A stretch of 32,136 nucleotides of DNA, taken from assembly GCF_020144665.1 (NCBI RefSeq), contig NZ_JAAHBQ010000065.1, forward strand, positions 1-32,136, given 5' to 3'. Origin of the DNA: Oscillatoria salina IIICB1. GTDB taxonomy: Bacteria > Cyanobacteriota > Cyanobacteriia > Cyanobacteriales > SIO1D9. Under the pieces are notes generated by a model, which ran no database searches, was not told the DNA's origin, and saw nothing but the letters and a program-made list of their open reading frames with translations. The position numbers were made by a program, and so were the translations under genes. This document shows, in pieces, positions 3,805 through 31,851 of this stretch. The first letter of the stretch is position 1, and each line of letters starts with the position of its first letter.

Positions 3805-3986
3805 CCTCTCTAACTACCCCACTAACTTTTTTTAGTTATCACGTACCCGCATTTACCAGTTTTCAGCTACCAGTTTTCAGTTAACAGTGAACAGTTTATT
3901 CTCTAATTCCCCTTATTTTCCAATCTAGCTGCCCTCATAACTCTCTGTGGCAAATCATCTTAGCAAAACTCGGTATCAGCGATCGC

Positions 3987-4138
3987 TTAGGGATTGGGGA
4001 TTGGGGATTGGGGATTAGGGATTGGGGATTGGGGATTAGGGATTGGGGATTGGGGATTGGGGATTAGGGATTGGGGATTAGGGATTGGGGATTGGGGATT
4101 GGGGATTAGGGATTAGGGATTGGGGATTAGGGATTGGG
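3987..4138 (+). repeat. Heptamer tandem repeat (STRR), TTGGGGA/TTAGGGA
   Basis: About 21 uninterrupted 7-bp units, mixing TTGGGGA and TTAGGGA. These short tandemly repeated repetitive sequences are well known in filamentous cyanobacteria. The G-rich strand has runs of four G every seven bases with 3-nt linkers, a classic G-quadruplex-forming arrangement. The tract lies between the aminotransferase promoter region and the 3' end of the alkylsulfatase-type gene. The 3805-3986 stretch before it holds only diverged CAGTTTTCAG/CAGTGAACAG repeats. Confidence 0.95.
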
Positions 4139-4215
4139 AAATCAGTTATCAGTTACCAGTTTATCCTTCCTCCTTGTCCTCCCCCTCTCCCTTGTCCTCC
4201 CCCTCTTCCCAATCA

Positions 4216-14388: not shown

Positions 14389-14470
14389 TGCGGACGAAGA
14401 GACTCGAACTCTTACACCTTGCGGCACTAGAACCTAAATCTAGCGCGTCTACCAATTCCGCCACGTCCGC
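14389..14470 (-). tRNA. trnL-UAG: tRNA-Leu (anticodon UAG)
   Basis: An 82-nt class II tRNA. Acceptor arms GCGGACG and CGTCCGC pair fully, with A as discriminator base. The D arm contains GAATTGGTAGACGCG. The anticodon stem CTAGA/TCTAG frames the loop TTTAGGT, so the anticodon is TAG, reading CUA/CUN leucine codons. The long variable arm (TGCCGCAAGGTG) is typical of leucine tRNAs. The T loop is TTCGAGT. CCA is not encoded. A terminator follows, and a heptamer repeat begins 32 bp upstream. Confidence 0.97.
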
Positions 14471-14501
14471 TTATTAATTGACCGTATACTATCTTAGCAC
14501 G

Positions 14502-14624
14502 AGATTGGGGATTGGGGATTGGGGATTGGGGATTGGTGATTGGGGATTGGGGATTGGGGATTGGGGATTGGTGATTGGGGATTAGGGATTGGTGATTGGG
14601 GATTAGGGATTGGGGATTGGGGAC
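14502..14624 (+). repeat. Heptamer tandem repeat (STRR), TTGGGGA with TTGGTGA and TTAGGGA variants
   Basis: About 17 units of the same 7-bp family as at 3987-4138, ending GGGGACTGAATT. It lies between the 3' end of the glycosyl-hydrolase-like gene and tRNA-Leu. With respect to the tRNA (minus strand) the tract starts just where a -35 box should be, so a core promoter can use only the 31 bp between tract and gene (containing AGTATACG). Confidence 0.95.
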
Positions 14625-14700
14625 TGAATTGTCTGTTTTGCTAAATTTGTTTCACAGAATTGGTAATTTGTCAAGCGTGATTTAGAAAAATTAACTGAAA

Positions 14701-16618: not shown

Positions 16619-16655
16619 GTTTTAAGCCCTGGGAGGGATTTTAGCTGATTAAAAG
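16619..16655 (-). repeat. Degenerate terminal repeat (leader-distal end)
   Basis: On the minus strand the 5' half is intact (CTTTTAATCAGCTAAA, then ATCCCT) but the 3' part changes to CCCAGGGCTTAAAAC, losing the GATTGAAAC handle. It marks the old end of the array. The changed stem can still pair partly (CCCT with AGGG). Confidence 0.95.
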
Positions 16656-19600
16656 TCGATCATTGTACCGTTAGCATCCCTATCAAAAGCGTTTCAATCC
16701 CTATTAGGGATTTTAGCTGATTAAAAGGCGCTAGGATAACACCGCGAGAGGGGAAACTACCAGTTTCAATCCCTATTAGGGATTTTAGCTGATTAAAAGT
16801 ATTGGTGACGATCTGCAAGCTAGAGAAGTTGCTTCAATTGTTTCAATCCCTATTAGGGATTTTAGCTGATTAAAAGAAGTCTTTAGGAGGTAATTAAAAA
16901 TGCGGAAAGGGTTTCAATCCCTATTAGGGATTTTAGCTGATTAAAAGCTTGAATCGATTGTTTAATTAAATCTAAATCTAAGTTTCAATCCCTATTAGGG
17001 ATTTTAGCTGATTAAAAGAATTTTTTGATCAAGTTTTTGATTTTAAAATATTTGGTTTCAATCCCTATTAGGGATTTTAGCTGATTAAAAGGCGAACTTG
17101 CCGCATAAAGGCGGCGATCGCGCCAACGTTTCAATCCCTATTAGGGATTTTAGCTGATTAAAAGACGAACAGCTAATTTGGCTGTATCACCGATATGCGT
17201 TTCAATCCCTATTAGGGATTTTAGCTGATTAAAAGAGCTGCACAAGTTTGTTTGTACCACCGATGTACTCAGTTTCAATCCCTATTAGGGATTTTAGCTG
17301 ATTAAAAGCTTACCTAGGTAAGTTTCCAACTCCTCACAATAAGTTTCAATCCCTATTAGGGATTTTAGCTGATTAAAAGGCGAAAATCACACCAGTGTTA
17401 GGGAAAGTTCCGTCGTTTCAATCCCTATTAGGGATTTTAGCTGATTAAAAGGTGGAATTGAATTGAGGTTAAAGAGATGAGTTATGTTTCAATCCCTATT
17501 AGGGATTTTAGCTGATTAAAAGTTCTGTAGATATTTCTCGACAGCTATAGCTAAAAGGTTTCAATCCCTATTAGGGATTTTAGCTGATTAAAAGATCTTT
17601 TGGGGTTAGTCGCTCTCAGTGAAATTTTGTTTCAATCCCTATTAGGGATTTTAGCTGATTAAAAGATGGTGAAAGTTTAACTATTGATGATATAGCCAAA
17701 TTAGTTTCAATCCCTATTAGGGATTTTAGCTGATTAAAAGGTTCTACTTACTAATCGTATCCGATCTAAGTTTCTGTTTCAATCCCTATTAGGGATTTTA
17801 GCTGATTAAAAGCTTCTAGGTGGTCTTGGAGGTTGACTGGGCAGCGGTTTCAATCCCTATTAGGGATTTTAGCTGATTAAAAGTTCCAGCAACGACTCCC
17901 CAAGCTGCACCTATAGGTTTCAATCCCTATTAGGGATTTTAGCTGATTAAAAGCATAAAGAGAACCGGGATTTTGAATCAAAGCACTGTTTCAATCCCTA
18001 TTAGGGATTTTAGCTGATTAAAAGGAGAATTTACAATAGATATGTGAGGGAAGCCTGCGTTTCAATCCCTATTAGGGATTTTAGCTGATTAAAAGCAACT
18101 ATTCTAGAAAGAATCGTAGGTATGCGAAAAGTTTCAATCCCTATTAGGGATTTTAGCTGATTAAAAGACTGCTAAATTTTATCAGTATCATTTACTAGAA
18201 TGTTTCAATCCCTATTAGGGATTTTAGCTGATTAAAAGCTTTTGAAAGGCGCTTGTTCTCCACAAGTTAGAAAAGTTTCAATCCCTATTAGGGATTTTAG
18301 CTGATTAAAAGAAAGTAATTAAGGCTTCTCAAGCTAAATTATTGAGTTTCAATCCCTATTAGGGATTTTAGCTGATTAAAAGGATTGTAATGAGTGGTAT
18401 CATCAGCAAGCAAGTCACTTAAGTTTCAATCCCTATTAGGGATTTTAGCTGATTAAAAGGCTCGCTTCACTCGCGCAGATATCGCAGTCAATGTTTTCGT
18501 TTCAATCCCTATTAGGGATTTTAGCTGATTAAAAGATTTCAATTGAACAACTACAAACTCAATTAGAAGCGTTTCAATCCCTATTAGGGATTTTAGCTGA
18601 TTAAAAGCCTTGGATCTTAGCGGCTACTTTGTCATACTCGCTCTTTAAGTTTCAATCCCTATTAGGGATTTTAGCTGATTAAAAGAAGGTATATGATCTC
18701 TTATTAGTTGTTGTGTTATGTTTCAATCCCTATTAGGGATTTTAGCTGATTAAAAGTAGTGTCTATCAGCTTTTGGCTAGGCTCTACAATTTTGTTTCAA
18801 TCCCTATTAGGGATTTTAGCTGATTAAAAGAAAATATGAGTAAAAATAGCGATAATCAAACGGCTGTTTCAATCCCTATTAGGGATTTTAGCTGATTAAA
18901 AGGCGGGGGGGTCTTGTTTTTGTGCCTCACCCTGCTCTGTTTCAATCCCTATTAGGGATTTTAGCTGATTAAAAGGTTAGAACCTTCCGCTAGTGGGGCT
19001 TTCGGACTACACGTTTCAATCCCTATTAGGGATTTTAGCTGATTAAAAGCCTGAAAATCCGGGTATTCTTCTTCGTTTTGGTCGTTATGCGTTTCAATCC
19101 CTATTAGGGATTTTAGCTGATTAAAAGAAAAATGGGTTAGGTTTTGCCAATCTAGTCAATGTTTCAATCCCTATTAGGGATTTTAGCTGATTAAAAGAGG
19201 TCACAGTCTAGAGTTTGCAGTAAGTCAAGTCGTTTCAATCCCTATTAGGGATTTTAGCTGATTAAAAGCAACATGGTCATACTTCCGAAACTTCTGTCTA
19301 AAGTTTCAATCCCTATTAGGGATTTTAGCTGATTAAAAGTTGAGTTGAGATTGTTATAGAGGAAACAGAATTTTAGTTTCAATCCCTATTAGGGATTTTA
19401 GCTGATTAAAAGTCGATTCTGATATCGAAGAAGCAACAGAAGCGGTTTCAATCCCTATTAGGGATTTTAGCTGATTAAAAGCAGTGATCGGTTTGTTGTT
19501 TACAGCGATCGCTTTGTTTCAATCCCTATTAGGGATTTTAGCTGATTAAAAGAGGTCGCAGCACGATGAAAGTTCGTGTCCTTCTTGAATTTGTTTCAAT

Positions 19601-20582
19601 CCCTATTAGGGATTTTAGCTGATTAAAAGCCTTTGCCATCGTAGCAGAGGATATCGGTCCGGTTTCAATCCCTATTAGGGATTTTAGCTGATTAAAAGCC
19701 AGTATTGTCCCTGGCTGTCCTTGATCAAGTATCTTGTTTCAATCCCTATTAGGGATTTTAGCTGATTAAAAGTTGCACTTGGTTACTGTCTTCTAGTAAT
19801 TCCGGTGAAGTTTCAATCCCTATTAGGGATTTTAGCTGATTAAAAGGTAGCAATTACTTGGGCTACTCCCAAGCAAATTGAAAAGTTTCAATCCCTATTA
19901 GGGATTTTAGCTGATTAAAAGTTACAAGAGGAGGCGATAATCTCGAAAATCAATGGTTTCAATCCCTATTAGGGATTTTAGCTGATTAAAAGGGTTGTTG
20001 ATTTTTGGAAAGAAGCAGTTTATTGGGTTTCAATCCCTATTAGGGATTTTAGCTGATTAAAAGCAATTACTAAATAGGTAACAATTCTCGGTTAGAAAAA
20101 CGAATGTTTCAATCCCTATTAGGGATTTTAGCTGATTAAAAGTTGAGTTGATTCAACAAAAAGCAGCAACAGCTTAGTTTCAATCCCTATTAGGGATTTT
20201 AGCTGATTAAAAGGGTGATTATGCGGACAAAAAGGTATTTGCTGACGCGTTTCAATCCCTATTAGGGATTTTAGCTGATTAAAAGAAGGAGTATTTTCAA
20301 AATATCTCAGTTTTGCACAGGCTGTTGTTTCAATCCCTATTAGGGATTTTAGCTGATTAAAAGATTCAGGCGATCGCTCTAGCATCCTTAAATTAGAAGT
20401 GTTTCAATCCCTATTAGGGATTTTAGCTGATTAAAAGGCAGGGGATTTATGCAGTTCCCAGTATAAGTTTAAAGTTTCAATCCCTATTAGGGATTTTAGC
20501 TGATTAAAAGTATTTCATATCTGCTTATGCCTCCATTGTGGCGGAGTTTCAATCCCTATTAGGGATTTTAGCTGATTAAAAG
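16619..20582 (-). CRISPR. Type I-D CRISPR array, 55 repeats and 54 spacers
   Basis: The repeat is 37 bp. On the minus strand it starts CTTTTAATCAGCTAAA, has the stem ATCCCT-AAT-AGGGAT and ends GATTGAAAC, the usual 3' end giving an 8-nt crRNA 5' handle ATTGAAAC. By hand count there are 55 repeats with a mean period of 73 bp and spacers of about 32-41 nt. All repeats that I read are identical except the one at 16619-16655. That degenerate repeat, the position of cas2 and the GAAAC end all put the leader at the right (20583-20794) and transcription on the minus strand, as for the cas genes. The oldest spacers are therefore at the left. Cas6 at 22733-23542 should process the transcript. Small open frames inside the array are artefacts of the repeat. 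Confidence 0.98.
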
Positions 20583-20794: not shown

Positions 20795-21082
20795 CTACCC
20801 ATCCGCAGCTTCTGCAAAGAAAATTGTTTCGTCGCGAGGCATTTCGCCACCGATACGTTCGATTTTACCTTGACAGCAGCCGCAGAGGAAGTAAAAGCGG
20901 ATGCTGTCGGTTTCTGGTTGAATCAATTTTCGCAGACGCGATCGCAGTTTGGCATATTGAGTTTTGGTGAGGTCGCACTCGAAGACGCTATACTGCATCC
21001 ATTGTCCGTAGGATTTCAGGATGTTATGAATTTTGGTACGGCGTTTGTCTTCGGAAATGTCGTAGCTGATGACAACAAACAT
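20795..21082 (-). CDS. cas2: CRISPR adaptation protein Cas2
   Basis: 95 aa, the usual size. It starts with the ferredoxin-like first strand MFVVISYDISEDKRRTKI, where D8 is the conserved aspartate, and continues with NILKSYGQWMQYSVFECDL, typical of Cas2. The dimer bridges two Cas1 dimers in the spacer integrase and binds the prespacer. The C-terminus is GGEMPRDETIFFAEAADG. It lies 18 bp after cas1 in the same operon and directly before the leader. ATG start. Confidence 0.95.
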   Translation of the reverse strand: MFVVISYDISEDKRRTKIHNILKSYGQWMQYSVFECDLTKTQYAKLRSRLRKLIQPETDSIRFYFLCGCCQGKIERIGGEMPRDETIFFAEAADG

Positions 21083-21100
21083 GAGTTGGCTAATTTGTGC

Positions 21101-22105
21101 TTAAATTAGGACTAAGGGTGGATATTTGTCGGTTTCGCCCATGAGGTATTTAGCTAAAAGTCGGGCTTGAATTTCAAAGGCTTCTTGATAGGTACATTGA
21201 CGTTTCAAGACTGGATGTTTGAATTTGCTTTGTTTTTTCTGTTCGTAGAGACGGAGAAAGGTTTTCAGTCCGTCTTTGGTTAAGGAAACTGCTTCACTGA
21301 GGGGTTCGCTGGTAAAATCGTCTAAGGTTAGCGATCGCTTATTCAAGGCACTCAAGACGACTGCATCGACAACTAAGGGACGAAATTCTTCCATCAAATC
21401 CAATGCTAGTGAGGGACGACCGTAATGTTCGAGGTGGAGGTATCCTAGATAAGGATCGAAGCCAACGATGTTGACTGCGCTTTGGATATCGTGACGCAAC
21501 AGAGAGTAACCAAAGCTGAGTAAGGAGTTAACAGGATCGGTTGGTGGACGGCGTTTGCGCTTTTTAAATTCAAAATCGGCGTTTTTAATTAGTTGGTTGA
21601 AGCAGCCGAAATAAGCTTTGCTTCCTGCTCCTTCTAAGCCACGGAGGGAGTTAATATTGTTGGTAGTTTCGATTGGGGCTAATGCTTGTTCGATCTGAGT
21701 AATTCCGGTTTGTAGCTTTTGGTGAGAATTTTCGCGATCGCGTCTTCGCAAGCTGTTACGATAGTTTTTGAGTTTCCCTCGAACAAATCCTTGAACGAGA
21801 TGAATGGCTTGGGGTGTTTCTCCGGCTGCGTTCCATTGGGCTTTGCGAAGAAAGATATTTTTGGTAACTTCAGGTTCGAGACGACCGAGGTAGCGTCCGG
21901 TATGAGTAAAATAGCTGAGGGGAATGTTGCGTTGTAGCAATTCGGTGACGACTGCGGGGGAAACGGTGGCGCGTCCTAATAATACTACGCCGTCGATTTT
22001 AATCAGAGGAACGTCTATGAGTTTGGTTTTGTTAGCTTTGACGTGGAGACGTTCGTCAATTTTGCCAACGAAGGCATCTTCTTGAGTCACATATACTGTT
22101 CCCAT
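21101..22105 (-). CDS. cas1: CRISPR integrase Cas1 (type I-D)
   Basis: 334 aa from the ATG at 22105; a TTG two codons earlier (22111) is possible but the ATG has AAGGA upstream. Cas1 inserts new spacers at the leader end of the array by cutting and joining at the repeat edges. The metal-binding catalytic residues are visible: glutamate in SLRGLEGAGSKAYF, histidine in YLGYLHLEHYGRPSLALDL and the acidic residues in LMEEFRPLVVDA. The N-terminal beta domain starts GTVYVTQEDAFVGKIDERL. The gene lies between cas4 and cas2 with short gaps (30 and 18 bp), forming an adaptation module. Confidence 0.97.
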   Translation of the reverse strand: MGTVYVTQEDAFVGKIDERLHVKANKTKLIDVPLIKIDGVVLLGRATVSPAVVTELLQRNIPLSYFTHTGRYLGRLEPEVTKNIFLRKAQWNAAGETPQAIHLVQGFVRGKLKNYRNSLRRRDRENSHQKLQTGITQIEQALAPIETTNNINSLRGLEGAGSKAYFGCFNQLIKNADFEFKKRKRRPPTDPVNSLLSFGYSLLRHDIQSAVNIVGFDPYLGYLHLEHYGRPSLALDLMEEFRPLVVDAVVLSALNKRSLTLDDFTSEPLSEAVSLTKDGLKTFLRLYEQKKQSKFKHPVLKRQCTYQEAFEIQARLLAKYLMGETDKYPPLVLI

Positions 22106-22135
22106 GAGCAATTTTTCCTTAAATTTAGGGTTGAT

Positions 22136-22729
22136 TTACAATGCTTCTTGATAGTGTTCGACTTTCTTCGCTGCTTGGGGTAAGCAGCGTGAATAAAGGC
22201 TACAACCTTGACAGCGTGAACTATAGACGGCTGGCGGAATCGTGCCGGAAGCGAGTAAGGTTTGAATAGCGGTAATTGTGGCTGTTGCTTGTTGTCTCAA
22301 TTCTGCGGAGATTTCGACAAGTTGGCGTTGGTGTGAGTGGGCGTGGTAAATATAGCCGATGTTGACAGGTTTTCCGGTCATTTCTTCTAAGCATAAAGCT
22401 TGGGCGCATAGTTGCAATTCGTCGTTATCCCATTCGCCTTTTTTACCTCGTTTGTATTCTACGGGGTAAAATTGTCCGGAATCGGCTTCAATGAGGTCAG
22501 CTTTGCCAATTAAATGATATTTTTCTGATTTCAGCCAAATCGCGCGAATTTGCCAGGTTTCTTCACGATGTCCGTCGCCGAGAGTGTGGACGCGATCGTG
22601 TAAACTGGTTCCTTCGATGGTATATTCGTTATCGACAAATTCGCCTGTACAAAACATTCGCCAGTAGCGATGGGGACAATAAGAATATTGGTTGAGTGAG
22701 GCTATGGTTAAATAATCGAGGTTGTTCAT
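22136..22729 (-). CDS. cas4: CRISPR adaptation nuclease Cas4
   Basis: 197 aa, a RecB-like nuclease with a 4Fe-4S cluster that trims prespacers and helps select those with a proper PAM. One cluster cysteine is C18 in YSYCPHRYW and three are near the C-terminus (C173, C176, C182 in SRCQGCSLYSRC). Nuclease residues are H44 (TSLHDRV), D78 (GKADLIE), E91 and K93 (PVEYKRG), with Q106 in ELQLCAQ as the usual motif III. The ATG is 3 bp after the cas6 stop codon and its GGAG lies in the end of cas6, so the two are translated from one message. Confidence 0.95.
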   Translation of the reverse strand: MNNLDYLTIASLNQYSYCPHRYWRMFCTGEFVDNEYTIEGTSLHDRVHTLGDGHREETWQIRAIWLKSEKYHLIGKADLIEADSGQFYPVEYKRGKKGEWDNDELQLCAQALCLEEMTGKPVNIGYIYHAHSHQRQLVEISAELRQQATATITAIQTLLASGTIPPAVYSSRCQGCSLYSRCLPQAAKKVEHYQEAL

Positions 22730-22732
22730 AAT

Positions 22733-23542
22733 TTAAATTCTCCTTACCATTCCCATTCCCATTGTGGTTTTGCGCCCAATACCTGAATAAAGGGCAAAAT
22801 CTGCTAAAGTATTAATTTGTTTGATGACAATTGGGTCGAGTTTGCCAAAGATGCGGTAACTAATTTCGCCAACGCAGCCAATAAATTTACTGCGAGAGTC
22901 AGCAACAATTGCGGTATTTATGTTGAAATAACTGGGAAAAATCGTCTCGAAATCGATCTCGGAGAATTCAATTCCGCTATACTTATGCCAACGATTGAGT
23001 AAACTATTAAAGACACTTTCGGAATTTGGCAGTGCATTGTCGTACTTTCCTTGACGAAACGCTACGGGTGTGGCGAAATTCAAGGAAATTTGATTGGTGG
23101 TTTCGCTGGCGCGATCGTACAATTGCTCGTAAGGACAAGAATTCGCCCAAGGCTGCATCGATTGCGGTGTTCCCAGAATACTGGTAATTTTAAGGTCAGC
23201 CGAGCCTAAATGCCAAGCGCGATCGGGATTTAAGTTTAGCCACAGTTCAGTTAATTTGCCGAAAATTGTCTCGTCAAGCAGAGAAATTCGCCACCAACAA
23301 GAAGTTCCGGGGGGGATAGATTTTTGATGTTCCCATTGCAAAGTTTGACGCGATCGCGCTTTAATTTGTAAAGGACTAAGAGTAAATGCTTTACCCGATT
23401 GAGAATCATGTAAATAGTTACCCAACTCTTTGTCAACAGAACTCACTAAAGTTAGAAAAAGAGCGTGTAAATGTCTCCCACTCAAGTAATTTGGAGAAAT
23501 AGGAGATAGAGGGATTAGGTTGAGAACTAAACTGTAAGGCAT
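22733..23542 (-). CDS. cas6: CRISPR RNA endonuclease Cas6 (type I-D)
   Basis: 269 aa. It cuts the array transcript within each repeat, leaving the ATTGAAAC handle. The N-terminus MPYSLVLNLIPLSPISPNYLSG is the Cas6 first strand; the histidines in GRHLHALFL (H24, H26) are the likely catalytic region. The C-terminal glycine-rich loop is clear (ALYSGIGRKTTMGMGMVRRI). The repeat stem ATCCCT-AAT-AGGGAT directly before the cut is the expected substrate. It is in the cas operon between csc1 and cas4. It may also process the two-repeat unit at 29548-29659, which keeps the same stem. Confidence 0.92.
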   Translation of the reverse strand: MPYSLVLNLIPLSPISPNYLSGRHLHALFLTLVSSVDKELGNYLHDSQSGKAFTLSPLQIKARSRQTLQWEHQKSIPPGTSCWWRISLLDETIFGKLTELWLNLNPDRAWHLGSADLKITSILGTPQSMQPWANSCPYEQLYDRASETTNQISLNFATPVAFRQGKYDNALPNSESVFNSLLNRWHKYSGIEFSEIDFETIFPSYFNINTAIVADSRSKFIGCVGEISYRIFGKLDPIVIKQINTLADFALYSGIGRKTTMGMGMVRRI

Positions 23543-23587
23543 GGGATTTTGAGAAGTGAAACTTGTGCAAATTGAAAACTAAAAAAA

Positions 23588-24301
23588 TTATGCTTGCGCG
23601 CTAAAACGATACTCCATACGTGCAGGAATTTTCAGTCCTTTAATTTCGTCCAACTGATAATATTCTCCTCGCATTTTTACGTTACGAATTAAACTCACAG
23701 GCGGCATATTTACTACATCATAGCTGATTACTTGATGAGTAAACATCACATCTAAAGGATTTAAAGGATAAGGATAAGTAAACACACCAGATTTTGTTTG
23801 AGGTTTAGACAGTTCTTTCATGTCCACTTCTGCTTTACTCATCCACTTGCCTAAACGAATCCAACGTGATAATTTTAGTTGATTTTTGCTCAGGAGAAAA
23901 AACTCAAATTTACTTTCCGCAGCTATTTCTTTAGTTCTGCCAAAACTGGGAATATTTTTCTGAGTTTTTTGCATTTCCACGTAGTAGTTATTGTTGGCAT
24001 ACTTCCACGTATTAAGTATAGCAGAATGTGAGAGCGATCGCGCTGGGGTTACATAAATTTTTTGTTCATTGAGTGGGGTTAAATGGGCTTCATACTTAGG
24101 TACTTGTTCGGAGCAAAAATAGCGATAGGAATCTTCTTCAGAAACGTTAGTAGCATAAGTTTCGCTATCAACTAATCCTAGTGCATAACAAAGTGCATAA
24201 TTGTGTAATACAGGTTCAGTTTCGTACAGTCGTCCAATTTCACGAGTTGCAAAGTAGAGGCTATCGTGAAGTTCAATCTGACAGCGATAGATAATTGTCA
24301 T
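23588..24301 (-). CDS. csc1: Type I-D Cascade subunit Csc1 (Cas5)
   Basis: 237 aa. Csc1 is the Cas5-type RAMP protein of type I-D complexes, which binds the 5' handle of the crRNA and contacts Cas10d. The start MTIIYRCQIELHDSLYFATREIGRLYETEPVLHNYALCYA (quoted in pieces here: MTIIYRCQIELHDSLYFA and EPVLHNYALCYALGL) is characteristic of the family, as is the C-terminal NVKMRGEYYQL region. ATG start, no strong Shine-Dalgarno. It lies 70 bp after csc2, with a strong hairpin in the gap that may lower its expression compared with csc2. Confidence 0.93.
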   Translation of the reverse strand: MTIIYRCQIELHDSLYFATREIGRLYETEPVLHNYALCYALGLVDSETYATNVSEEDSYRYFCSEQVPKYEAHLTPLNEQKIYVTPARSLSHSAILNTWKYANNNYYVEMQKTQKNIPSFGRTKEIAAESKFEFFLLSKNQLKLSRWIRLGKWMSKAEVDMKELSKPQTKSGVFTYPYPLNPLDVMFTHQVISYDVVNMPPVSLIRNVKMRGEYYQLDEIKGLKIPARMEYRFSAQA

Positions 24302-24336
24302 AACATCAAAAGAGGTATGAAAGTTTAGTTTTGTTT

Positions 24337-24359
24337 GGGGTAAGGTAACACCTCACCCC
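24337..24359 (-). other. Strong hairpin between csc2 and csc1
   Basis: On the minus strand GGGGTGAGGT pairs with ACCTTACCCC (10 bp including one G-U) with a 3-nt loop. No T run follows, so it is not a standard terminator. It starts 13 nt after the csc2 stop codon. It probably protects the csc2 message end or lowers read-through, fitting the need for several Csc2 but only one Csc1 per complex. Confidence 0.7.
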
Positions 24360-24371
24360 GAAATCACACTG

Positions 24372-25382
24372 TTACTTTGATTTTGCTGTTTTTTTCTTCT
24401 TCTCACCTATATGTTTTTTAGCGTAAGCTTTGGTTTCAGTGTCAGCTTGTTGCAAAATAGAAAGAATACCTTTTTCGGTTGCTGTGAGTGCTTTTACTTC
24501 TGTGATTAGAGGTTGAAATGCTTCGCCAATAAAGTCAGTATAAACGATAAATTCATCTGCCATTAAAGCTTGAATTGCCTCAGTTGCTTTTTCCATTACT
24601 AAATCTTCGTCGAGGGGATCGATTGATGTTAAAATGTCTTTCGGAAGACGATCGTAAATTGCCTGTGTCCAGCGTAAATTACTAACAATTTCACCATCGG
24701 CAAAAACGACACCTAATAACTCATTTCTTACTCGTCCGGTACGAGTTGTTTGTGCGCCATAGTGTCTAGTTCGCAAGATGTTATTAAAAACATACAAAAA
24801 GCTAGCTTCTGTGGGGTCTTTTAAGGTGACAATACTAGGAAAAAACACTTGGGGACGGATATGATCTTGTTGATTGATACGACTGGTAACTTCACCCGGT
24901 TTAGAACCTTTTTCCCCTTTCGATGCCATTGTACCATTTTCATAAGGTGCGTTGAGAGTAAATGTTTCATGAGATTCGTCAAAAGGTGTAATAGAAAATG
25001 CTGTGTCAACAACAACTTTGGACTTTTCGGAACCAGAATCACCAATGGCAAAGCCGTAGATGATACAGTCAGGATTATCCATGCCAAATTCAACGTTATA
25101 TTCGCATTCTTCTGGTTTAACAAGTTCATATTTACGCAGTAATTCGCGACCAACTAAACGTTCTGGTGTTGATTGTTTGCGTTTAAACATTGAGAGACGA
25201 CTAATTGGTTGACGGTTGTCAATTCCGGCGCGAACGCGGGCTTTATTTAGTTCTCCGTCGGTTTGAAATAGGGGATAAGATTCTGTGACTCTGAGAGTTA
25301 GAAAGTGAACGTATTTTCCCATTGGTTTGTAGGGAATTTCGGTGTGGAAAAATTTGCTGTCGATGGTTTTAAGTAATGACAT
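24372..25382 (-). CDS. csc2: Type I-D Cascade backbone subunit Csc2 (Cas7)
   Basis: 336 aa. Csc2 is the Cas7 RAMP protein that lines up along the crRNA spacer in several copies. Family features are GKYVHFLTLRVTESYPLFQTDG at the start (here in part), RAGIDNRQPISRLSMFKRKQ, the region CIIYGFAIGDSGSEKSKVV and the NNILRTRHYGAQTTRTGRV segment. The C-terminus is lysine-rich (KKHIGEKKKKTAKSK). ATG start with AGGAG at good spacing. It is 37 bp after cas10d and followed by a hairpin. Confidence 0.95.
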   Translation of the reverse strand: MSLLKTIDSKFFHTEIPYKPMGKYVHFLTLRVTESYPLFQTDGELNKARVRAGIDNRQPISRLSMFKRKQSTPERLVGRELLRKYELVKPEECEYNVEFGMDNPDCIIYGFAIGDSGSEKSKVVVDTAFSITPFDESHETFTLNAPYENGTMASKGEKGSKPGEVTSRINQQDHIRPQVFFPSIVTLKDPTEASFLYVFNNILRTRHYGAQTTRTGRVRNELLGVVFADGEIVSNLRWTQAIYDRLPKDILTSIDPLDEDLVMEKATEAIQALMADEFIVYTDFIGEAFQPLITEVKALTATEKGILSILQQADTETKAYAKKHIGEKKKKTAKSK

Positions 25383-25419: not shown

Positions 25420-28400
25420 TTATGAGTTTTCAGTTTCAGATTCATCCTCAACTGATTCGCCTTTAGCTTTGTTGTCTTGATTTTCTTTATCTTGTTCGAG
25501 ACGATAAATAAATTCGCAAGTATCGCGAATTAGGTTGAGTTGTCGTCCCGCGAGACGGGCGCGATCGCCTTTGAATGCGCCTTCAAACACTTCGACGACA
25601 AAATAACGGGCAAATTCAAGTACCGCTTGGCGTTCGATTTCGCGATCGCTAATTACCCAACGCCCTTCCGCAGTCGAAGCATGAACCCTATCCATTAGTT
25701 TGCAGACTTCCGCCGCTACTGCGGCAATTAAGGTTTCGCCGTGAAAAACACTTGATTCTGCTTTGAGAATTGTCTCAGCCGCGATATCAATGGGTTTGAG
25801 GACAGCATTCGCTTTCGGGTTATAACGCTTGTTAGCGCGGTAAAACTCTCGATAGAGTTCAGTTAAATTTTTGGGATGATTCAAAGGCGATCTTGCTTCC
25901 ACAGTTAATTCCTCCAAATTGCGATTAAATTGAACATAAGGATCGAAGCATGGATAAAAGTCATAAGTGTACAATTTGATGCGATTAATGCTAGGAAGAT
26001 CGGCATCTTTTCCTCGCGTCCATTTATTCAAATAATGGAAAACATACAGAGGACTGGTTTCGAGATTTGTCGCCAATTCCGTTAATTTTCCCCAGTTAGC
26101 ATCGTAACCAGATTTACCTCGTTTAGGATTAACATCGAGATGAATTGAATAAGCGGCAGTGAGGACGTTTAAAGGTGCGGAAAATTGCTTACCATTGTCG
26201 TCTTCCCAACCTTCAAGAATGTAGTCTAGACGAAATCGATCTTGTTTTGTCAAGACTCGAAATGCTGGCGGCGCGCTGTCGAGAAATACTGTTTCTTCAA
26301 ATTCTGCACCGTCGCGATAGGGTGGAATTGGCGACTCGGAAACCACGGTTTTGACATCAAGAATCATGGGGAAGGCAAATGCTAACCATGCAGGCATTAT
26401 CCAAGATGCTGTATCAGTTATTTTTTTCTCTTGCTTTTTTCCTGGAGGCTTTTCTGGTGGGAGTGCCATAAAGTAGAAAGTAAGCGGTTTATCATCAGGG
26501 TAGGAAAGTTTAAATGTACGGTCTTTTTTTTGCTGTAGTTCGGTGTCAATAAGAAAAGCGTCTACAGTTTGATAGCGAGATCGCTCAAAGTTGGCTTTTA
26601 AGTTTTCGCTAACAAAATGTTTACGAATGCTGGTATCAAAGCGAGTTTGAGAAATATTCAGATAAGCTTTTTGTAAGAAGCTATTAGTTTCTGGCGTAAA
26701 GTAATAAGTTGGATAGAAATAAAGATAGCGATATTTTCCATCTTCAAATCGTTTGCCAACTGCTTGAGTTTGATTCATTAAAATCTGCCGCAGCATCATT
26801 TCTACACCCGCAATACTAGAAATATTACGCTTCGCATTCGAGCCGCCTAACATTTGTTTGTTAGTATAAACTTGCGGCGTAAATAATACCGCCGACTCCA
26901 TTTGTTCGGTGACAGTATAAGCAGAATGAGAAAGAGAACAAATCAATTGACGACCGCGACCTGATTTTTTTGCAGTGTTATAATTGTTAAGTTCGTTGAG
27001 AAAAGTTTCTGCTTGTTCTGTTGGAGTTTCTGTTATTTCTTGACCGGGAAGCATGACTACTCGACTTACCCATTCTCTCAAGTCATCCCAACCATCAGCT
27101 AAGTTATATTGTTCGACAATTGGTTGAATTTTTTGAGCTATGAAAGCAATAATATCTTCGCCAATAGTACGAATTTCTTCGGGTGCTATTCCGGGATTAT
27201 TTTCTAAATATTTCGCAGCTAAATAATACCATTCATAAGGTACGCCGCCTGTATTTCCTTTCAGTTTTAGTTCTTTAAGGGTTTCGTTGATGCGCTGAAT
27301 TTCCCGAATTTGTGGGAGATATTTTTCTAGCTGCCAAAAGTTAGCGACTTCGGCTACTAAATCAAGTTCTGGTGGTGCGGGTAACTTTTTATTTTGCTTA
27401 CGAAGAGTTTCAATTTTTGCAAGGCGATCGCCCCAAATTTTTCGACTTATAACATCACCAAATTCTGCGAGTTGGTCAATGCGAATATCATTATCAAAAT
27501 GAAAGTTATAATCGGCAGATAAAACTCCTTTTTCTTGAAATTTAACTAAGTTGTCGCTGCGACTTTTTGCTACTGAAGTTTTTGTAGGTTTGAGAATGCG
27601 TAAAGTAGCATCAAGTGCGACTTGCATTAAGCCAAAATCGTCAAAAAATTGGCTATAATAGTCGGCATACTTCATTCCTTTTCCGTCGCGTCCAAACCCA
27701 GTTTGTCTGCGTTGTAATTCGCCTCTACATAAATTTTTGATCGTGTCAACAACGCGGTTAGGGAGGTCTGCTGGAGAAATTATAGGAGAGTTGCGATCGC
27801 ACAAATAAATGACTCCCGTGGGTAAGTATAATAAGGGTTCGTAGTAGGTTTTTTCGGCGGTATTGAGGGCTGTATGGGCTTCCATGACGGCGTTATTAAC
27901 CACGTTGGTGAGTACGCCGCGATTTTCAGCAATGCTATGGTAAGTTAGCTTTAATTGACCATCGCTGAGTTGGTGAATAAGTTCGCTTAAACTGTTGTTT
28001 TGTGCATCTTGGGGATGTTTTACAATTGAAGCGAGACGATCGGCGAGACAGGTTAGATCGGCTAGACAAGAAAGAGTGCGATCGCGTAATCTTGGATTCA
28101 ATCCATCTTCAGATAAATTTAAGTTAGTATCGTTGCGTTTTTGGGCATTGTATGCTACGAAAAGTAAGTCATCAATATAGTCGCGCCATTGTTCGGGAGA
28201 GTCAGGAAATAAAAAGCGATCGATTCCTAATTCGGGAACCATTACTACAAATATTTCGCGATGTTCTGCAACTGAAAGTTTACGAATATCGCCGTTAGGA
28301 TCTCGCCGAATCAAACGATATTTTTCCGGCATTTCCGGGAAGAGATCGTAATTAAATTTTTCAAAATCATGCAGAATAAAAGCTGCAATTTCTATCCGTC

Positions 28401-28902
28401 TTTCAAATTCTTTGACTACACGACGCGCAGTAGTATTCAGTTTTTCCAAGCGTTTTTCGATTAAATTAGCCGGAAATAAACCATTGAGTAAATGCGTATT
28501 CAAAGATTGATCGCCAGCATTATCGCGACGGACAGGATCTTTTCCTTCTGCAATACGACGACGATCGATTTTGTCGAAAAATTTCCCACCTTTGGCAGTT
28601 ACACCAATTGCAACACGCAATAAATTTGGTAAGACAAATTCAGCAAAATCTACCATTACTGGATCGTCAGGATTTTGTGACTGAATTGCTTCGCGAAGTA
28701 GCCTTAAAGTAAGTAATTCTTGAGTGATAGAAATTGTGCGATCGCTTTCATCAGCATCTATTCCTAAATCTTCATCCGAAAGTTCTTCTAAGTCGATTTC
28801 ATCAAATTCATCAGTTTCATTTTCTGAAGTTACTTCTGGATTTAAGTCGTCAAATAAACTCAGTTGTCGTGGATCGTTGTTCGATTTCTTACGTTTAGCC
28901 AT
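25420..28902 (-). CDS. cas10d: Type I-D large subunit Cas10d (Csc3) with HD nuclease domain
   Basis: 1160 aa from the ATG at 28902; a TTG three codons earlier is possible. Cas10d is the large subunit of the I-D complex, recognises the PAM and carries the HD nuclease that in most other type I systems is on Cas3. The N-terminus is very acidic (residues 20-60). The HD motifs are visible as NTHLLNGLF (H137) and AAFILHDFEKF (H178, D179). I see no GGDD cyclase motif, as expected for I-D. Later segments such as ELQRRQTGFGRDGKGMKYADYY (in part) and CSLSHSAYTVTEQMES are typical. The C-terminal tail is acidic again (ESVEDESETENS). It is the first large gene of the operon that runs to cas2; a 232-bp gap separates it from the winged-helix gene. 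Confidence 0.95.
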   Translation of the reverse strand: MAKRKKSNNDPRQLSLFDDLNPEVTSENETDEFDEIDLEELSDEDLGIDADESDRTISITQELLTLRLLREAIQSQNPDDPVMVDFAEFVLPNLLRVAIGVTAKGGKFFDKIDRRRIAEGKDPVRRDNAGDQSLNTHLLNGLFPANLIEKRLEKLNTTARRVVKEFERRIEIAAFILHDFEKFNYDLFPEMPEKYRLIRRDPNGDIRKLSVAEHREIFVVMVPELGIDRFLFPDSPEQWRDYIDDLLFVAYNAQKRNDTNLNLSEDGLNPRLRDRTLSCLADLTCLADRLASIVKHPQDAQNNSLSELIHQLSDGQLKLTYHSIAENRGVLTNVVNNAVMEAHTALNTAEKTYYEPLLYLPTGVIYLCDRNSPIISPADLPNRVVDTIKNLCRGELQRRQTGFGRDGKGMKYADYYSQFFDDFGLMQVALDATLRILKPTKTSVAKSRSDNLVKFQEKGVLSADYNFHFDNDIRIDQLAEFGDVISRKIWGDRLAKIETLRKQNKKLPAPPELDLVAEVANFWQLEKYLPQIREIQRINETLKELKLKGNTGGVPYEWYYLAAKYLENNPGIAPEEIRTIGEDIIAFIAQKIQPIVEQYNLADGWDDLREWVSRVVMLPGQEITETPTEQAETFLNELNNYNTAKKSGRGRQLICSLSHSAYTVTEQMESAVLFTPQVYTNKQMLGGSNAKRNISSIAGVEMMLRQILMNQTQAVGKRFEDGKYRYLYFYPTYYFTPETNSFLQKAYLNISQTRFDTSIRKHFVSENLKANFERSRYQTVDAFLIDTELQQKKDRTFKLSYPDDKPLTFYFMALPPEKPPGKKQEKKITDTASWIMPAWLAFAFPMILDVKTVVSESPIPPYRDGAEFEETVFLDSAPPAFRVLTKQDRFRLDYILEGWEDDNGKQFSAPLNVLTAAYSIHLDVNPKRGKSGYDANWGKLTELATNLETSPLYVFHYLNKWTRGKDADLPSINRIKLYTYDFYPCFDPYVQFNRNLEELTVEARSPLNHPKNLTELYREFYRANKRYNPKANAVLKPIDIAAETILKAESSVFHGETLIAAVAAEVCKLMDRVHASTAEGRWVISDREIERQAVLEFARYFVVEVFEGAFKGDRARLAGRQLNLIRDTCEFIYRLEQDKENQDNKAKGESVEDESETENS

Positions 28903-29134
28903 TTTTATCAAAGTCTAATATGTTGCAAGAAAAGGAGAGGGAAATAGGAAGGAAGCTGTTGGTTAAGGGCTTGAGATTTAACTGAACCAGCCTTTATCAG
29001 AAGGGGGTTCGAGATTACCTACGCCTGAGCTTAATTCCGCAAGCTAGAAACTAACTTCCCTACTCCTTGGGTGGTGTTAGGAGATTGCTCAAAGAAATAT
29101 AACAATCTCCCAACGAGCTATCGCATTTGCTATG
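28903..29134. other. Gap between the winged-helix gene and cas10d, with a hairpin at 29080-29110
   Basis: No gene is seen. GGAGATTG (29080-29087) and CAATCTCC (29103-29110) form a perfect 8-bp stem with a 15-nt loop about 25 nt after the end of the winged-helix gene. There is no T run in the minus direction, so read-through into cas10d remains likely. No clear promoter directly before cas10d was found. Confidence 0.5.
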
Positions 29135-29326
29135 CTATGGCATCCGATACTCGAATTGATTATGAGCAATCATACGTTTTTCGATGAAATACCCTTTTTT
29201 GCGTGCTTTAAAAACAGTATCGTTAAAACGCCAACTTACTTTCGATGCAAGTTCGTTGCTGGAATGCCATTTTTTATCTTTGAGAACTCTTAGGAGTTTT
29301 TGGAGATTGGTAGGCTTTCGTTTCAA
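29135..29326 (-). CDS. Small winged-helix protein, possible cas regulator
   Basis: 63 aa, basic. The pattern LQKLLRVLKDKKWHSSNELASKVSWRFNDTVFKARKKGYFI (given as LLRVLKDKKWHSSNELASKV and FNDTVFKARKKGYFIEKRM) is helix, helix-turn-helix and a beta wing (AHNQFEYRMP), a compact winged-helix fold. The start is TTG at 29326, supported by GAGGAGGTGATT nine bases before it, which is close to a full anti-16S match. It lies between cas3' and cas10d in the same direction and behind the TTGACA promoter at 29415-29443. A DNA-binding regulator of the cas genes is a reasonable inference; an unrelated small gene cannot be ruled out. Confidence 0.7.
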   Translation of the reverse strand: MKRKPTNLQKLLRVLKDKKWHSSNELASKVSWRFNDTVFKARKKGYFIEKRMIAHNQFEYRMP

Positions 29327-29414
29327 GGTTAATCACCTCCTCAAGTGATCGATATTACGATCGCGTTCGCTCAATTCACCCTATAGGCTGCGCTTCAGCG
29401 ATCTTGATATTTCC

Positions 29415-29443
29415 AAGCTAATGATTGCGATACCTCTTGTCAA
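29415..29443 (-). promoter_or_regulatory. Candidate promoter for the winged-helix gene and cas operon
   Basis: On the minus strand a consensus -35 TTGACA (29438-29443) is followed after 17 bp by TAGCTT (29415-29420), a moderate -10. A start near 29408 would leave about 80 nt before the TTG start codon. It is the best promoter I found upstream of the cas10d operon. Confidence 0.5.
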
Positions 29444-29478
29444 TACTTTTTAAGAAATAAGCATTAGACTTATTCGAC
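29441..29478 (-). promoter_or_regulatory. Candidate target A of the crRNA-like mini-array spacer
   Basis: On the minus strand GTC is followed by GAATAAGTCTAA (29475 downward). The mini-array spacer begins GAATAGGTCTGA, so 10 of 12 agree; mismatches are at positions 6 and 11. GTC fits the I-D PAM (GTN/GTH), and position 6 is normally unpaired in type I complexes. A 35-nt footprint would reach 29441, touching the TTGACA box. Confidence 0.45.
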
Positions 29479-29493
29479 CTAGTAGTTTATAAA
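29464..29493 (+). promoter_or_regulatory. Candidate promoter of the mini-array
   Basis: TTAGAC (29464-29469) and TATAAA (29488-29493) with 18 bp between them. A start near 29500 would transcribe the two-repeat unit at 29548-29659. It overlaps target A and lies next to target B. Confidence 0.3.
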
Positions 29494-29509
29494 CACATAC
29501 TTATTCAAC
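29472..29509 (-). promoter_or_regulatory. Candidate target B of the crRNA-like mini-array spacer
   Basis: On the minus strand GTT is followed by GAATAAGTATGT (29506 downward). Compared with spacer start GAATAGGTCTGA, 9 of 12 agree; mismatches are at 6, 9 and 12, of which 6 and 12 are normally unpaired. Sites A and B share ACTTATTCRACC on the plus strand, 31 bp apart. The same repeats could alternatively be sites for a DNA-binding protein. Confidence 0.35.
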
Positions 29510-29547
29510 CCCCCGATGTGATAGAGTGAAATTATCTTAGGCTCCAG

Positions 29548-29659
29548 TGACTTCATTACATTAATCCCTATCAGGGATTGAAACGAATAGGTCTGAGCTT
29601 ACTGCTGTAAGCTTCTATCCACTGGAGAAAAAACCATAATCCCTATGAGGGATCGAAAC
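29548..29659 (+). CRISPR. Degenerate two-repeat CRISPR unit, candidate crRNA-like regulatory RNA
   Basis: Two elements end in ATCCCTATCAGGGATTGAAAC-like and ATCCCTATGAGGGATCGAAAC-like cores (ends at 29584 and 29659). Each agrees with the 3' 24 nt of the main repeat at 20 positions and keeps the stem ATCCCT/AGGGAT and the GAAAC end, while the 5' parts have diverged. They are 75 bp apart, the same register as the main array. The orientation is plus, opposite to the main array. The single spacer starts GAATAGGTCTGAGC at 29585 and is about 38 nt. The last base of the second repeat overlaps the cas3' stop codon. It lies where CreR/CreA-type RNAs have been found in other CRISPR types, between cas genes. 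Confidence 0.7.
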
Positions 29660-31851
29660 TAACAAATCCATGTTTCACCTCCTTTGCTTTTGAAACGATA
29701 GGCTAAGGTATCGAGGAGTAAGGCTGGTTGACCGATCGCGATCGCGTAAGGTGGTGTCGTCTCGTGAACGCTGGTTGCATCGCTAATCGGGTAAAGTGCG
29801 AAGTGCATCGGAAGTTGCAAACGGTAGCGGATTTCGATGACAGGATAAGGTAAAACGTAACTAACGAGTCCCTGTTTTCGCAGTCGTTGGTTAATTTTGT
29901 CAATCCAAGGGTTATCGGGTTGCCAAACTTCAATCCCCGTTAATACTTGCACTTTCCAAGCTTCGGCAATTTCTTGTAAGTTTCCCGCGTAGGTAAACCG
30001 CCAATTTAACCGTTCTTCGCGATATCCTTTGAGAACCATAAATGCGAGACAATGTTTAAAGTGACCTTTCGCAATGGGTTGTCCGAGACGTTGAGAAGTG
30101 TCTTGTAGCGATCGCATAAATCCGGCTTCTGTCCACATTCCAATCTCTAAATTGCTTAAAATTCCTGGTAGATCGTAAGTTTTAAACCGAGATTCTTCGT
30201 CTTCCTCAGTTTGGTCATATAAACCACATTGCAAAGGACTCGATCCCCGAAAACTTGACGCATCATCAAAGATCGGATTTCCTTTTTTACCTGACATTTT
30301 TTGCCACTCTTTTGACCAACCGATGACACAACCTGCAACTCGTTTCAGATTAGTACCAAATACTTCTTCGCAGTCCTGTTGGAACTTTTCTCGACTAATC
30401 CTGTAGTTTTGTTGAATCTTTGGATTACCTAAGCTATACCAAAGTTTAAAAGATTGCACTGCACCCCACCGTTTATAATACCCAGCAAAGTCGTTAATCT
30501 TACGATAATTGTCAATAATTGCGTTATTAAAATCGGGTCGATTGTAATGATTGCCAATTTCTAGGGGTGCATTATCTTTTGCAAATAAACGTTCGACAAG
30601 AAACTTGGGAACCAGTGCATAAGCAGTAAAATTATTAAATTGAATATCTTGACCATTTTTTTGATAGCCATCATGACGACCTAAGCGTCCTAATCTTTGA
30701 ATAAAATTACCTGTATCTGAGGATTCAAAAATCAAAAAATTAATCTTAAAATCAACCCCAACGTCAATTGTACTTGTCCCCAAAACTAAGTCGCAATCGA
30801 GAGATTGTAATTTAGTTTGACGACCAGATAAACCTGTATTTTCACCGACTGTTAAGTTATGAGGTTCAAAAATTTCGCGGAAAATTGGTACGAGTCGCTT
30901 AACTGAAGCAATAGAATTAAGAATAATTGCGCCTTTACTTCCTGGGTAAGCTTGAAAGTATTGTAAAACGAGTTCTTTATTTTCTTTTAACCAGGTTTCT
31001 GATGCGGAAAATGTTGATTCTAGAGGTATAAAGTTGAGTTTGATTTCTCGTGCAACTTGTCGCCATTTTTGTGCTTGTAATTGCTTTGCTAAATCGCTGG
31101 TGTCAGGAAATTTATATTTATCAGCCTGAGTAGGATCGATTACCTGATAATGAAATCCGGCTTTGTCTAGCTTTTCTAATAACTGATTGTCTGGAGTTGC
31201 GGAAAGAAACAAAAACTTTTTCTCTCGATTTGTCCGCCGAATTAATAGCATTGTATTAATAACGCTAGCAATTTGCGGTGCAGCAAAAACATGAAATTCA
31301 TCAAAAATAAACAGGTTAAAGTTTTTATCAATTCGATTCCATAATTTATCTGGATTCTCTTTGGGATTGAGATATGCACCTCGGTGTAGATAATGGAAAA
31401 TATCGGGGTTAGTTAAGAGGATTTCGGAATTGTCGGTGCGAGAGGCGATCGCGGCGGCTTTTCTCAGTTTTTCTTGTTCTGAATACAATTCTAATTCTGC
31501 ACCACTTAACCGATGAATTCTTGGCTCATGTTCGGGTTGAAATATCTCTATATATTCACTTATTTGACGTTCTTGATCTCTGGCTAGTTCGTTCGTTGGA
31601 TATAAGCCAATTACAACAAAGTATGTTAGTAAAGTTTCCAAATATGCAGCTAAACTTTTCCCATCTCCAGTCATTGCGACATTAATAATTACATCAATAT
31701 TTGGATTGCGTAAAGCTTTTAAAGTTTCCACTTGATGCCAAACTAATGACCATTTCGGCGGCAGTTTAACATCTTCTGGGACTTCTGATGCCGGACAAGA
31801 ATAAATAGGTTTGAGCGTAATTCCGTATCTATCTAAGGTTGGAGTATTCAT
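29659..31851 (-). CDS. cas3: Type I-D helicase Cas3' (no HD domain)
   Basis: 730 aa SF2 DNA helicase that unwinds the target after recognition by the complex. Motifs: Q-like WHQVETLKAL, Walker A VAMTGDGKS (residues 58-66), LYPTNELARDQ (Ia), FDEFHVF (DEFH at 184-187), FLSATP (III), STIDVGVDF (V) and FIQRLGRLGRHDG (VI). There is no HD domain, which fits I-D where the nuclease is on Cas10d. ATG start with GAGGA upstream. It is the most upstream cas gene but is cut off from cas10d by about 750 bp that hold the winged-helix gene and the mini-array, so it probably has its own promoter in 31852-32070. Confidence 0.95.
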   Translation of the reverse strand: MNTPTLDRYGITLKPIYSCPASEVPEDVKLPPKWSLVWHQVETLKALRNPNIDVIINVAMTGDGKSLAAYLETLLTYFVVIGLYPTNELARDQERQISEYIEIFQPEHEPRIHRLSGAELELYSEQEKLRKAAAIASRTDNSEILLTNPDIFHYLHRGAYLNPKENPDKLWNRIDKNFNLFIFDEFHVFAAPQIASVINTMLLIRRTNREKKFLFLSATPDNQLLEKLDKAGFHYQVIDPTQADKYKFPDTSDLAKQLQAQKWRQVAREIKLNFIPLESTFSASETWLKENKELVLQYFQAYPGSKGAIILNSIASVKRLVPIFREIFEPHNLTVGENTGLSGRQTKLQSLDCDLVLGTSTIDVGVDFKINFLIFESSDTGNFIQRLGRLGRHDGYQKNGQDIQFNNFTAYALVPKFLVERLFAKDNAPLEIGNHYNRPDFNNAIIDNYRKINDFAGYYKRWGAVQSFKLWYSLGNPKIQQNYRISREKFQQDCEEVFGTNLKRVAGCVIGWSKEWQKMSGKKGNPIFDDASSFRGSSPLQCGLYDQTEEDEESRFKTYDLPGILSNLEIGMWTEAGFMRSLQDTSQRLGQPIAKGHFKHCLAFMVLKGYREERLNWRFTYAGNLQEIAEAWKVQVLTGIEVWQPDNPWIDKINQRLRKQGLVSYVLPYPVIEIRYRLQLPMHFALYPISDATSVHETTPPYAIAIGQPALLLDTLAYRFKSKGGETWIC

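Follow-up and report, generated by a model that had tools for sequence, protein, structure and literature searches.

A candidate guide-RNA unit in the type I-D CRISPR locus of Oscillatoria salina IIICB1, linked to exchangeable small genes

Inside a type I-D cas locus of Oscillatoria salina IIICB1 lie two CRISPR-like repeats separated by a single spacer, on the strand opposite to the cas genes. Is this unit debris from an old array, or does it encode a guide with a function of its own? The window analysed here is the whole 32,136-nt stretch (C65:1-32136) of a draft genome of 5.96 Mb. Its locus was assigned to type I-D by the PADLOC best models (Cas3d, Cas10d, Cas7d, Cas5d, Cas6d and Cas4d, with Cas1 and Cas2 adjoining). 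The features discussed below are listed in Table 1.

The two-repeat unit and its conservation

A first-pass annotation of the sequence had described a two-repeat remnant on the opposite strand, and its description of the layout holds. The unit occupies 29548-29659 on the + strand within the cas locus; the cas genes and the main array are on the - strand. The two pseudo-repeats, psiR1 (TGACTTCATTACATTAATCCCTATCAGGGATTGAAAC) and psiR2 (TGGAGAAAAAACCATAATCCCTATGAGGGATCGAAAC), begin at 29548 and 29623, which confirms the reported period of 75 bp, and the final base of psiR2 (29659) is, as had been noted, the final base of the cas3' stop codon. Both fold as the stem of the array repeat (-9.8 kcal/mol for psiR1, equalled by 0/200 shuffles, and -6.5 kcal/mol for psiR2, equalled by 7/200), and the sequence upstream of the stem differs from the array repeat, in line with the claimed divergence of the 5' halves. 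It had further been claimed that both copies keep the parts needed by Cas6 and the effector. This is correct for the folding stems and the GAAAC ends, but the handle of psiR2 (ATCGAAAC) has a single change within its 8 nt, immediately before GAAAC.

The unit is beyond chance: at up to 3 mismatches the whole genome contains 2 forward and 123 reverse matches to the stem-and-handle pattern, and 0 to the same pattern reversed as a control. The two forward matches are psiR1 and psiR2 themselves, and the reverse matches, among those listed, lie within arrays on contigs C44, C56 and C65. The C44 and C56 arrays are additional to that of the window and have almost identical repeat stems and handles. 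Passages of PMC10212523 give the products of I-D crRNA processing a 5' handle of 8 nt and a 3' handle of 29 nt, and on this basis a guide is predicted at 29577-29651. Folding of the whole predicted guide was no better than that of shuffles (z -1.3; 17/200), and Rfam at gathering threshold returned no match over 28700-29800. The spacer has an internal hairpin at 29596-29618 (GAGCUUAC UGCU GUAAGCUU), and a similar inverted repeat is present at 29017-29046.

An ordinary array has identical repeats and spacers that are not aimed at its own locus; here the two repeats are diverged and the spacer is self-matching. Pseudo-repeats that have diverged, yet retain the stem and the 5' handle, are instead the form taken by creA/creR-type guides. 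We also agree with the earlier view that the unit would hardly gain spacers, as it is not a spacer-gaining array.

Table 1. Features of the I-D locus in the window, ordered by descending position.
Feature	Position	Strand	Basis or match
cas3'	29659..31851	-	PADLOC model match
psiR2, pseudo-repeat giving 3' stem	29623..29659	+	stem and handle match, fold
guide spacer, 38 nt	29585..29622	+	self-matching seed and full-length sites
psiR1, pseudo-repeat giving 8-nt 5' handle (29577-29584)	29548..29584	+	stem and handle match, fold, same place in relatives
DNA target 1: PAM GTT (29509-29507), protospacer from 29506, reads GTT.GAATAAGTATGTG	29489..29509	-	13/17 matched
DNA target 2: PAM GTC (29478-29476), protospacer from 29475, reads GTC.GAATAAGTCTAATG	29458..29478	-	11/17 matched
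TTGACA, candidate -35 box of cargo gene	29438..29443	-	sequence
cargo ORF, 63 aa, type A, TTG start behind GGAGGTG	29135..29326	-	winged-helix fold
second, PAM-less site	29017..29046	guide-sense +	19/25 non-flipped positions
cas10d (listed start TTG 28911; ATG at 28902)	25420..28911	-	PADLOC model match
csc2, csc1, cas6, cas4, cas1, cas2	20795..25382	-	PADLOC model matches, adaptation genes beside
main CRISPR array, 55 copies with degenerate end copy; 54 perfect repeats	16619..20582	-	

A search with cas10d gave matches in 172/388 genomes of the order. From the 171 other matching genomes 120 were taken, those left out being mostly broken or weak matches, which with the window gave 121 loci; in all of them (121/121) cas10d is preceded, on its own strand, by a cas3' match. 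A repeat-like copy was defined as a score of at least 16 over 19 fixed repeat-core positions. Such scores occurred 137 times on the unit strand and 19 times on the other strand in 176 kb of gap, and no repeat-core score above 15 was found in 351 kb of cas10d sequence used as a comparison. Copies were present in the cas3'-cas10d gap on the unit strand in 88/121 loci and on the opposite strand in 17/121, with psiR1 and psiR2 both at the cas3' end in 69/121. The first-pass annotation had judged plain decay inadequate to explain the spared stem and handle, and we agree that these parts are kept under selection. It had named absence from every close relative as a refuting outcome, which the 88 loci with copies on the unit strand, at 16/19 or better, contradict.

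The label of remnant fares worse. The terminus of psiR1 is GAAA plus C, T or A in 84/85 units, whereas that of psiR2 is GAAAC in just 31/69. A strict psiR1 end and a lax psiR2 end are what a single guide RNA requires from each side; the unit is not a remnant. The psiR1 endings (n=85) were ATTGAAAC in 44 units, ATTGAAAT in 21, ATTGAAAA in 17, ACTGAAAT in 2 and ATTGTATT in 1. Counted by its last base alone, the handle ends in C in 44 units, T in 24 and A in 17; array repeats end in C, a few truncated consensus calls aside. A non-standard array core was found in 30 loci, of which 22 have a unit match. Judged by eye, the array's own stem variant is clear in the units of L099, L112, L117, L125 and L139, and not in most others.

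Promoter-side targets and the cargo genes behind them

GTN is the PAM published for type I-D in passages of PMC10212523. The spacer starts, directly after psiR1, with GAATAGGTCTGAGC, and its positions 1-5, 7 and 8 are matched at two GTN-flanked sites, targets 1 and 2. Position 6, which type I Cascade does not read, is mismatched at both, and position 9 at one and position 11 at the other. These are the sole sites in the 32-kb window with all seven seed positions matched beside the PAM (7/7+GTN), and both are upstream of the 63-aa ORF and cas10d. None of the 54 array spacers has a 7/7+GTN site in the gap (0/54). Shuffling the window spacer (n=2000) gave at least one site in 13 cases and two sites in 0. 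The sequence 3' of psiR2 was also considered as a second spacer and was ruled out, having no 7/7+GTN site in the gap. Among genome-wide PAM-bearing matches to the guide pattern, target 1 has the fewest mismatches. The number of guide-like sites in the genome showed no excess (8, against 13 for the reversed control), which leaves the small number of mismatches in target 1 as the one informative result here. A TTGAC[AT] motif like the candidate -35 box was found within 90 bp after the last + site in 21/68 loci (shuffles, 4.3%); a sigma-70 promoter scan of the gap returned no site by the scan's rule.

Target matching could be assessed in the 85/121 loci with a readable psiR1. A 7/7+GTN site was present in the unit's own gap in 59/85, compared with a mean of 3.6% and a maximum of 9.8% for swapped spacers, and was absent in 26/85, including most type C units (cargo types are described below). 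A held-out set was drawn from 80 loci of named genomes; removal of 38 that share DNA with the first set and 3 without an upstream cas3' left 39. Own-gap 7/7+GTN sites were found in 24/32 of its units (swapped spacers, mean 3.1%, maximum 14%), although, the loci being mutually related, these counts are not of independent events. Over both sets 34/117 units have no perfect site, many of them of type C. For type C a perfect site was found in 3/18, and most of the others show 12-14/15 matched positions at a GTC site that has mismatches in the seed.

When seed matches were collected blind to the PAM, GT stood at positions -3 and -2 in 75/112 (background 4.8%). The third PAM base at these 75 sites was T in 48, C in 25, A in 1 and G in 1, and 31 different seeds lie behind them. 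Matching at positions 6, 12 and 18 was 0.21, 0.25 and 0.21, i.e. chance (background 0.24-0.27), while it reached 0.99 at position 9 and 0.59-0.80 at positions 13-16 and was near background beyond about position 21. The skipping of positions 6, 12 and 18 is a Cascade signature. The sites are found 75-251 bp beyond psiR1 (median 109). According to passages of PMC8501985, CreA has a seed that comprises positions 1-5 and 7-11 and leaves 6 and 12 free, and it requires a PAM; over the loci the same seed (1-5, 7-11) finds its match beside a PAM in the DNA upstream of a linked gene.

The targets mostly lie upstream of a small ORF, here called the cargo. The cargo families could not be aligned to one another: A (~65 aa, winged helix; 33 of the 121 loci), B (about 80-118 aa, coiled-coil-like by eye; 24), C (~63 aa, with two QLxLF/QLELxLF motifs seen by alignment; 14), D (~79 aa; 6), E (~105 aa; 4) and F (~165 aa, RAMA domain, Pfam 2e-11; 10), where D is at times found behind E and so may not be an independent class. 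The motifs of type C presumably resemble sliding-clamp-binding motifs. Unit and cargo occur together in 80 of the 121 loci, neither in 26, the unit alone in 8 and the cargo alone in 7 (Fisher p 2e-13), a co-occurrence favoured by the definition of the cargo families from unit-bearing loci. The corresponding held-out counts are 28, 6, 4 and 1. A weaker unit is present in 4 of the 7 cargo-alone loci, and L108, L120 and L140 stay exceptions. Going by these sequence comparisons, the data suggest that a dedicated regulatory guide, linked to small accessory genes, is very common in cyanobacterial I-D loci.

Two further observations were made in the gaps. In L105 the type A frame (G037 C1:4077499-4077678) has two TGA stops, yet the unit and two matching sites are present. 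In L033-L152 the gap often also contains nucleotidyltransferase/HEPN-like pairs and DUF433-like or DUF1016-like ORFs (names given by eye).

Type C cargo is found in 10/291 genomes of the order, adjoining cas10d by coordinates in 10/10, and in 3/339 of a phylum sample, also beside cas10d, two of these being genomes of the order set. Type A is found in 49/291 genomes, in 25 of them within 5 kb upstream of cas10d. The other 24 are away from I-D cas10d, and 20 of them were examined; 13 are beside another effector operon, 6 are away from cas genes and 1 was not recovered. The neighbours are I-B Cas8b (L249, L257) and Cas10d of other clades (L251, L252, L253), with eight judged by size and neighbours. 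Beside these other effector operons a unit was found by the strict hairpin rule in 1/13 (L256), where the spacer of the repeat-like unit has a GTC-flanked seed match; L252 and L259 have repeat-like matches close upstream of the type A ORF. Upstream of such operons (L249, L251, L252, L256, L257, L267 and others) type A is often accompanied by a divergent ~290-aa ORF, which in L252 has a WYL match.

AlphaFold2, run with 24 sequences, modelled the window ORF with helices at 7-15, 23-29 and 34-44 and strands at 49-54 and 57-61 (pLDDT 86). A Foldseek search of the PDB with this model returned nothing at E 0.001 or better; among the matches listed, the best were mostly winged-helix regulators (best E 0.064). 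Pfam gave a single chance-level match for the window ORF, and HTH_91/HTH_39 matched one relative alone, below the cut-off. NCBIfam gave no match for types A-E, and neither Pfam nor NCBIfam gave a toxin match for the cargo families. On the strength of the model, the type A cargo looks like a DNA-binding regulator.

A second site without a PAM

A further match of ~30 nt to the spacer, on the guide-sense strand and without a PAM, recurs in the gaps of these loci. In the window it is the best match after the spacer itself (19/25, the next being 16), a score reached in the gap by 0/5000 shuffled spacers. It lies 106 nt before cas10d, and here the guide is complementary to the - strand transcript of the cargo and cas10d. 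Second sites at 18/25 or better were found in 68/117 loci, compared with 1.3% for spacers from other cargo families and 8.8% for all swaps; the held-out set alone gave 19/32. By cargo the counts are A 39/43, C 16/18, B+C 1/1, D 3/3, D+E 2/3, E 0/1, B 3/32, F 3/9 and no cargo 1/7, so types B and F lack the second site. Two of the three type F sites (L146, L152) were discounted, being the PAM-bearing promoter sites themselves.

A profile was built from 60/117 loci (at least 19/30; cargo A, C, D or E), or 53 pairs after removal of identical ones. Positions 4-29 that are not multiples of six match at 0.87, and positions 6, 12, 18, 24 and 30 at 0.25 (0.89 vs 0.24 in the held-out set alone). Selection bias was controlled by choosing sites without one of the six phases and then scoring that phase. 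Phase 6 scored 0.22 (68/117 loci) and the other phases 0.66-0.96 (19-42 loci). GTN was found at 0/60 second sites. The 3' half of the spacer, hardly used by the promoter site, covaries by eye with the second site. For type A the second site is 3' of the cargo ORF in 39/39; of 17 in type C, 14 are before the cargo ORF, 2 overlap the open frame and 1 is after it. Mismatches at paired positions (n=205) comprise 61 G-U-tolerant changes and 34 reverse changes.

The six-base mismatch phase points to Cascade at the second site, and an RNA target is indicated by the missing PAM, the weak match at positions 1-3 and the strand. According to passages of PMC9123187, I-D Cascade binds ssRNA at 11 nM regardless of the flank. 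From the observed match and 6-nt phase, we infer that the second site is an RNA target of I-D Cascade.

Proposed function, rival readings and known systems

The unit is probably a guide-RNA gene of the creA/creR kind, by which the I-D effector would silence a small cargo gene at its promoter and often also on its transcript. Anatomy and conservation suggest that Cas6d would cut the unit transcript within both pseudo-repeats, giving one crRNA-like guide made of the 8-nt handle of psiR1, the spacer and the stem of psiR2. Cascade loaded with it would bind, via the seed matches observed, PAM-flanked DNA upstream of the cargo ORF that precedes cas10d. Because matching fades past about position 21, transcription would be blocked with no cutting expected, as published CreA work leads one to assume. 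Where the cargo is of type A, C or D, its transcript usually has the second site, complementary to spacer positions 4-29, at which the same complex could silence it further; the transcript may also act as a sponge for the guide. Loss or inhibition of Cascade, or its engagement with other crRNAs, would release the cargo and probably also cas10d. We lean, with rather less assurance than for the guide gene itself, to the fuller reading that I-D Cascade has an RNA target which is natural and conserved, and in which one guide serves promoter DNA and transcript, with silencing or sponging, while unrelated cargo is swapped. Since the unit is tied to exchangeable small genes, a guard function of the cargo (toxin-like or abortive) appears somewhat more likely than regulation of the cas operon; the adjacency of type A to cas10d lends some weight to CreR-like autorepression.

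That last option was our initial reading in its simple form: the guide would autorepress the cas effector operon, the targeted promoter would drive the small ORF together with cas10d, and the ORF would be a regulator or leader. It was demoted because small ORFs of several families separate the targets from cas10d, and is now the less probable account, if one with substantial weight. In the window the 63-aa ORF is all that separates the targets from cas10d, the second site is close before cas10d, type A ORFs also precede large-subunit genes of other effector operons (13/20 further regions) and their fold is a winged helix, all of which would suit autorepression. However, other genes intervene between the targets and cas10d in many loci, the unit is retained as unrelated cargo families replace one another, and the second site of type C is mostly before the cargo ORF (14/17). 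That the second site is not an RNA target but a DNA site lacking a PAM, or else a unit copy that has decayed, is possible and somewhat doubtful. Its 5' flank in types A and C (GAGACT, GAGATT, CGAAT) is similar to the repeat handle GAAAC/GAAAT at a one-base offset, which would fit this reading, but a decayed copy would not mismatch at 6, 12, 18, 24 and 30, and the lack of GTN and the surplus of G-U-tolerant over reverse changes both speak against DNA.

An operator reading, in which a DNA-binding protein such as the winged-helix cargo would recognise a motif repeated in the unit, in the promoter and behind the ORF, is very improbable. The commonest cargo, type A, is indeed a winged helix and the spacer does contain an inverted repeat; nevertheless, an operator would account neither for the PAM at 75/112 seed matches nor for a mismatch phase of exactly six, and the same logic is found with cargo types B, C, D and F. 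Least credible of all, to the point of being negligible, is a decaying fragment of an old array. Divergence of both 5' repeat halves from the main array is what such a fragment might show, but place and strand are the same in 88/121 loci, and spacers that covary with sites in their own gap (59/85 and 24/32) contradict it. The remnant reading had overlooked both promoter sites with their PAMs, the small ORF that follows these and the second full-length site.

Guides of this general kind are already known, as CreTA, CreR, CrePA and mini-arrays. In 2023 Shmakov et al. reportedly described conserved mini-arrays of two repeats that lie in cas loci and target the promoters of cas or cargo genes. CreTA of I-B haloarchaea, as presented in passages of PMC8501985 and PMC9458426, is alike in its two degenerate pseudo-repeats, its spacer partly matching the promoter of a neighbouring small gene, its seed (1-5/7-11), its need for a PAM and its link to its own cas locus. 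The unit differs in being type I-D with PAM GTN, in its cargo ORFs of 60-190 aa from several families, and in its second, PAM-less full-length site on the transcript; the term I-D occurs in neither paper. CreR (I-B, I-E, V-A; available parts of PMC12737573 and PMC13131331) shares a crRNA-like guide with a partial match upstream of a cas gene and expression that is likely released when Cascade is occupied. In contrast, the first gene behind the targets of the unit is an exchangeable small ORF and the transcript has a second site. In CreR the repressed promoter drives cas effector genes; as to this point, the cargo ORF of the window is followed by cas10d, and elsewhere other genes are often between them. 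CrePA, in which CreA represses a KilA-N protein toxin (passages of PMC12737573), likewise has a guide-repressed protein-coding gene beside a CRISPR locus, but no tested cargo family matches KilA-N in Pfam. What looks new is the two-target, cargo-swapping I-D form of such a guide gene. The available parts of PMC12737573, PMC8501985, PMC9458426, PMC13131331, PMC10212523, PMC9123187 and PMC10651486 contain no such I-D guide, cargo families or PAM-less second site, and an earlier mention of the I-D unit may exist, for example in the 2023 survey by Shmakov or the CreR paper.

The comparison names new candidate guard or regulator proteins, namely the winged-helix, coiled-coil-like, double QLxLF peptide and RAMA-domain cargoes. 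If true, the two-level lock would supply a physiological role for the ssRNA binding seen with I-D Cascade in vitro. The findings also suggest that a two-repeat 'remnant' within a cas locus deserves a test for regulatory function before it is written off as debris.

Two minor observations concern other repeats of the window. Positions 1-37, at the contig edge, resemble the end of the spacer together with the 5' half of psiR2 (family D18; 79% over 28 nt). Two related tandem-repeat blocks with 14-bp steps (D3) are found 10 kb apart, at 3943-4196 and 14461-14686.
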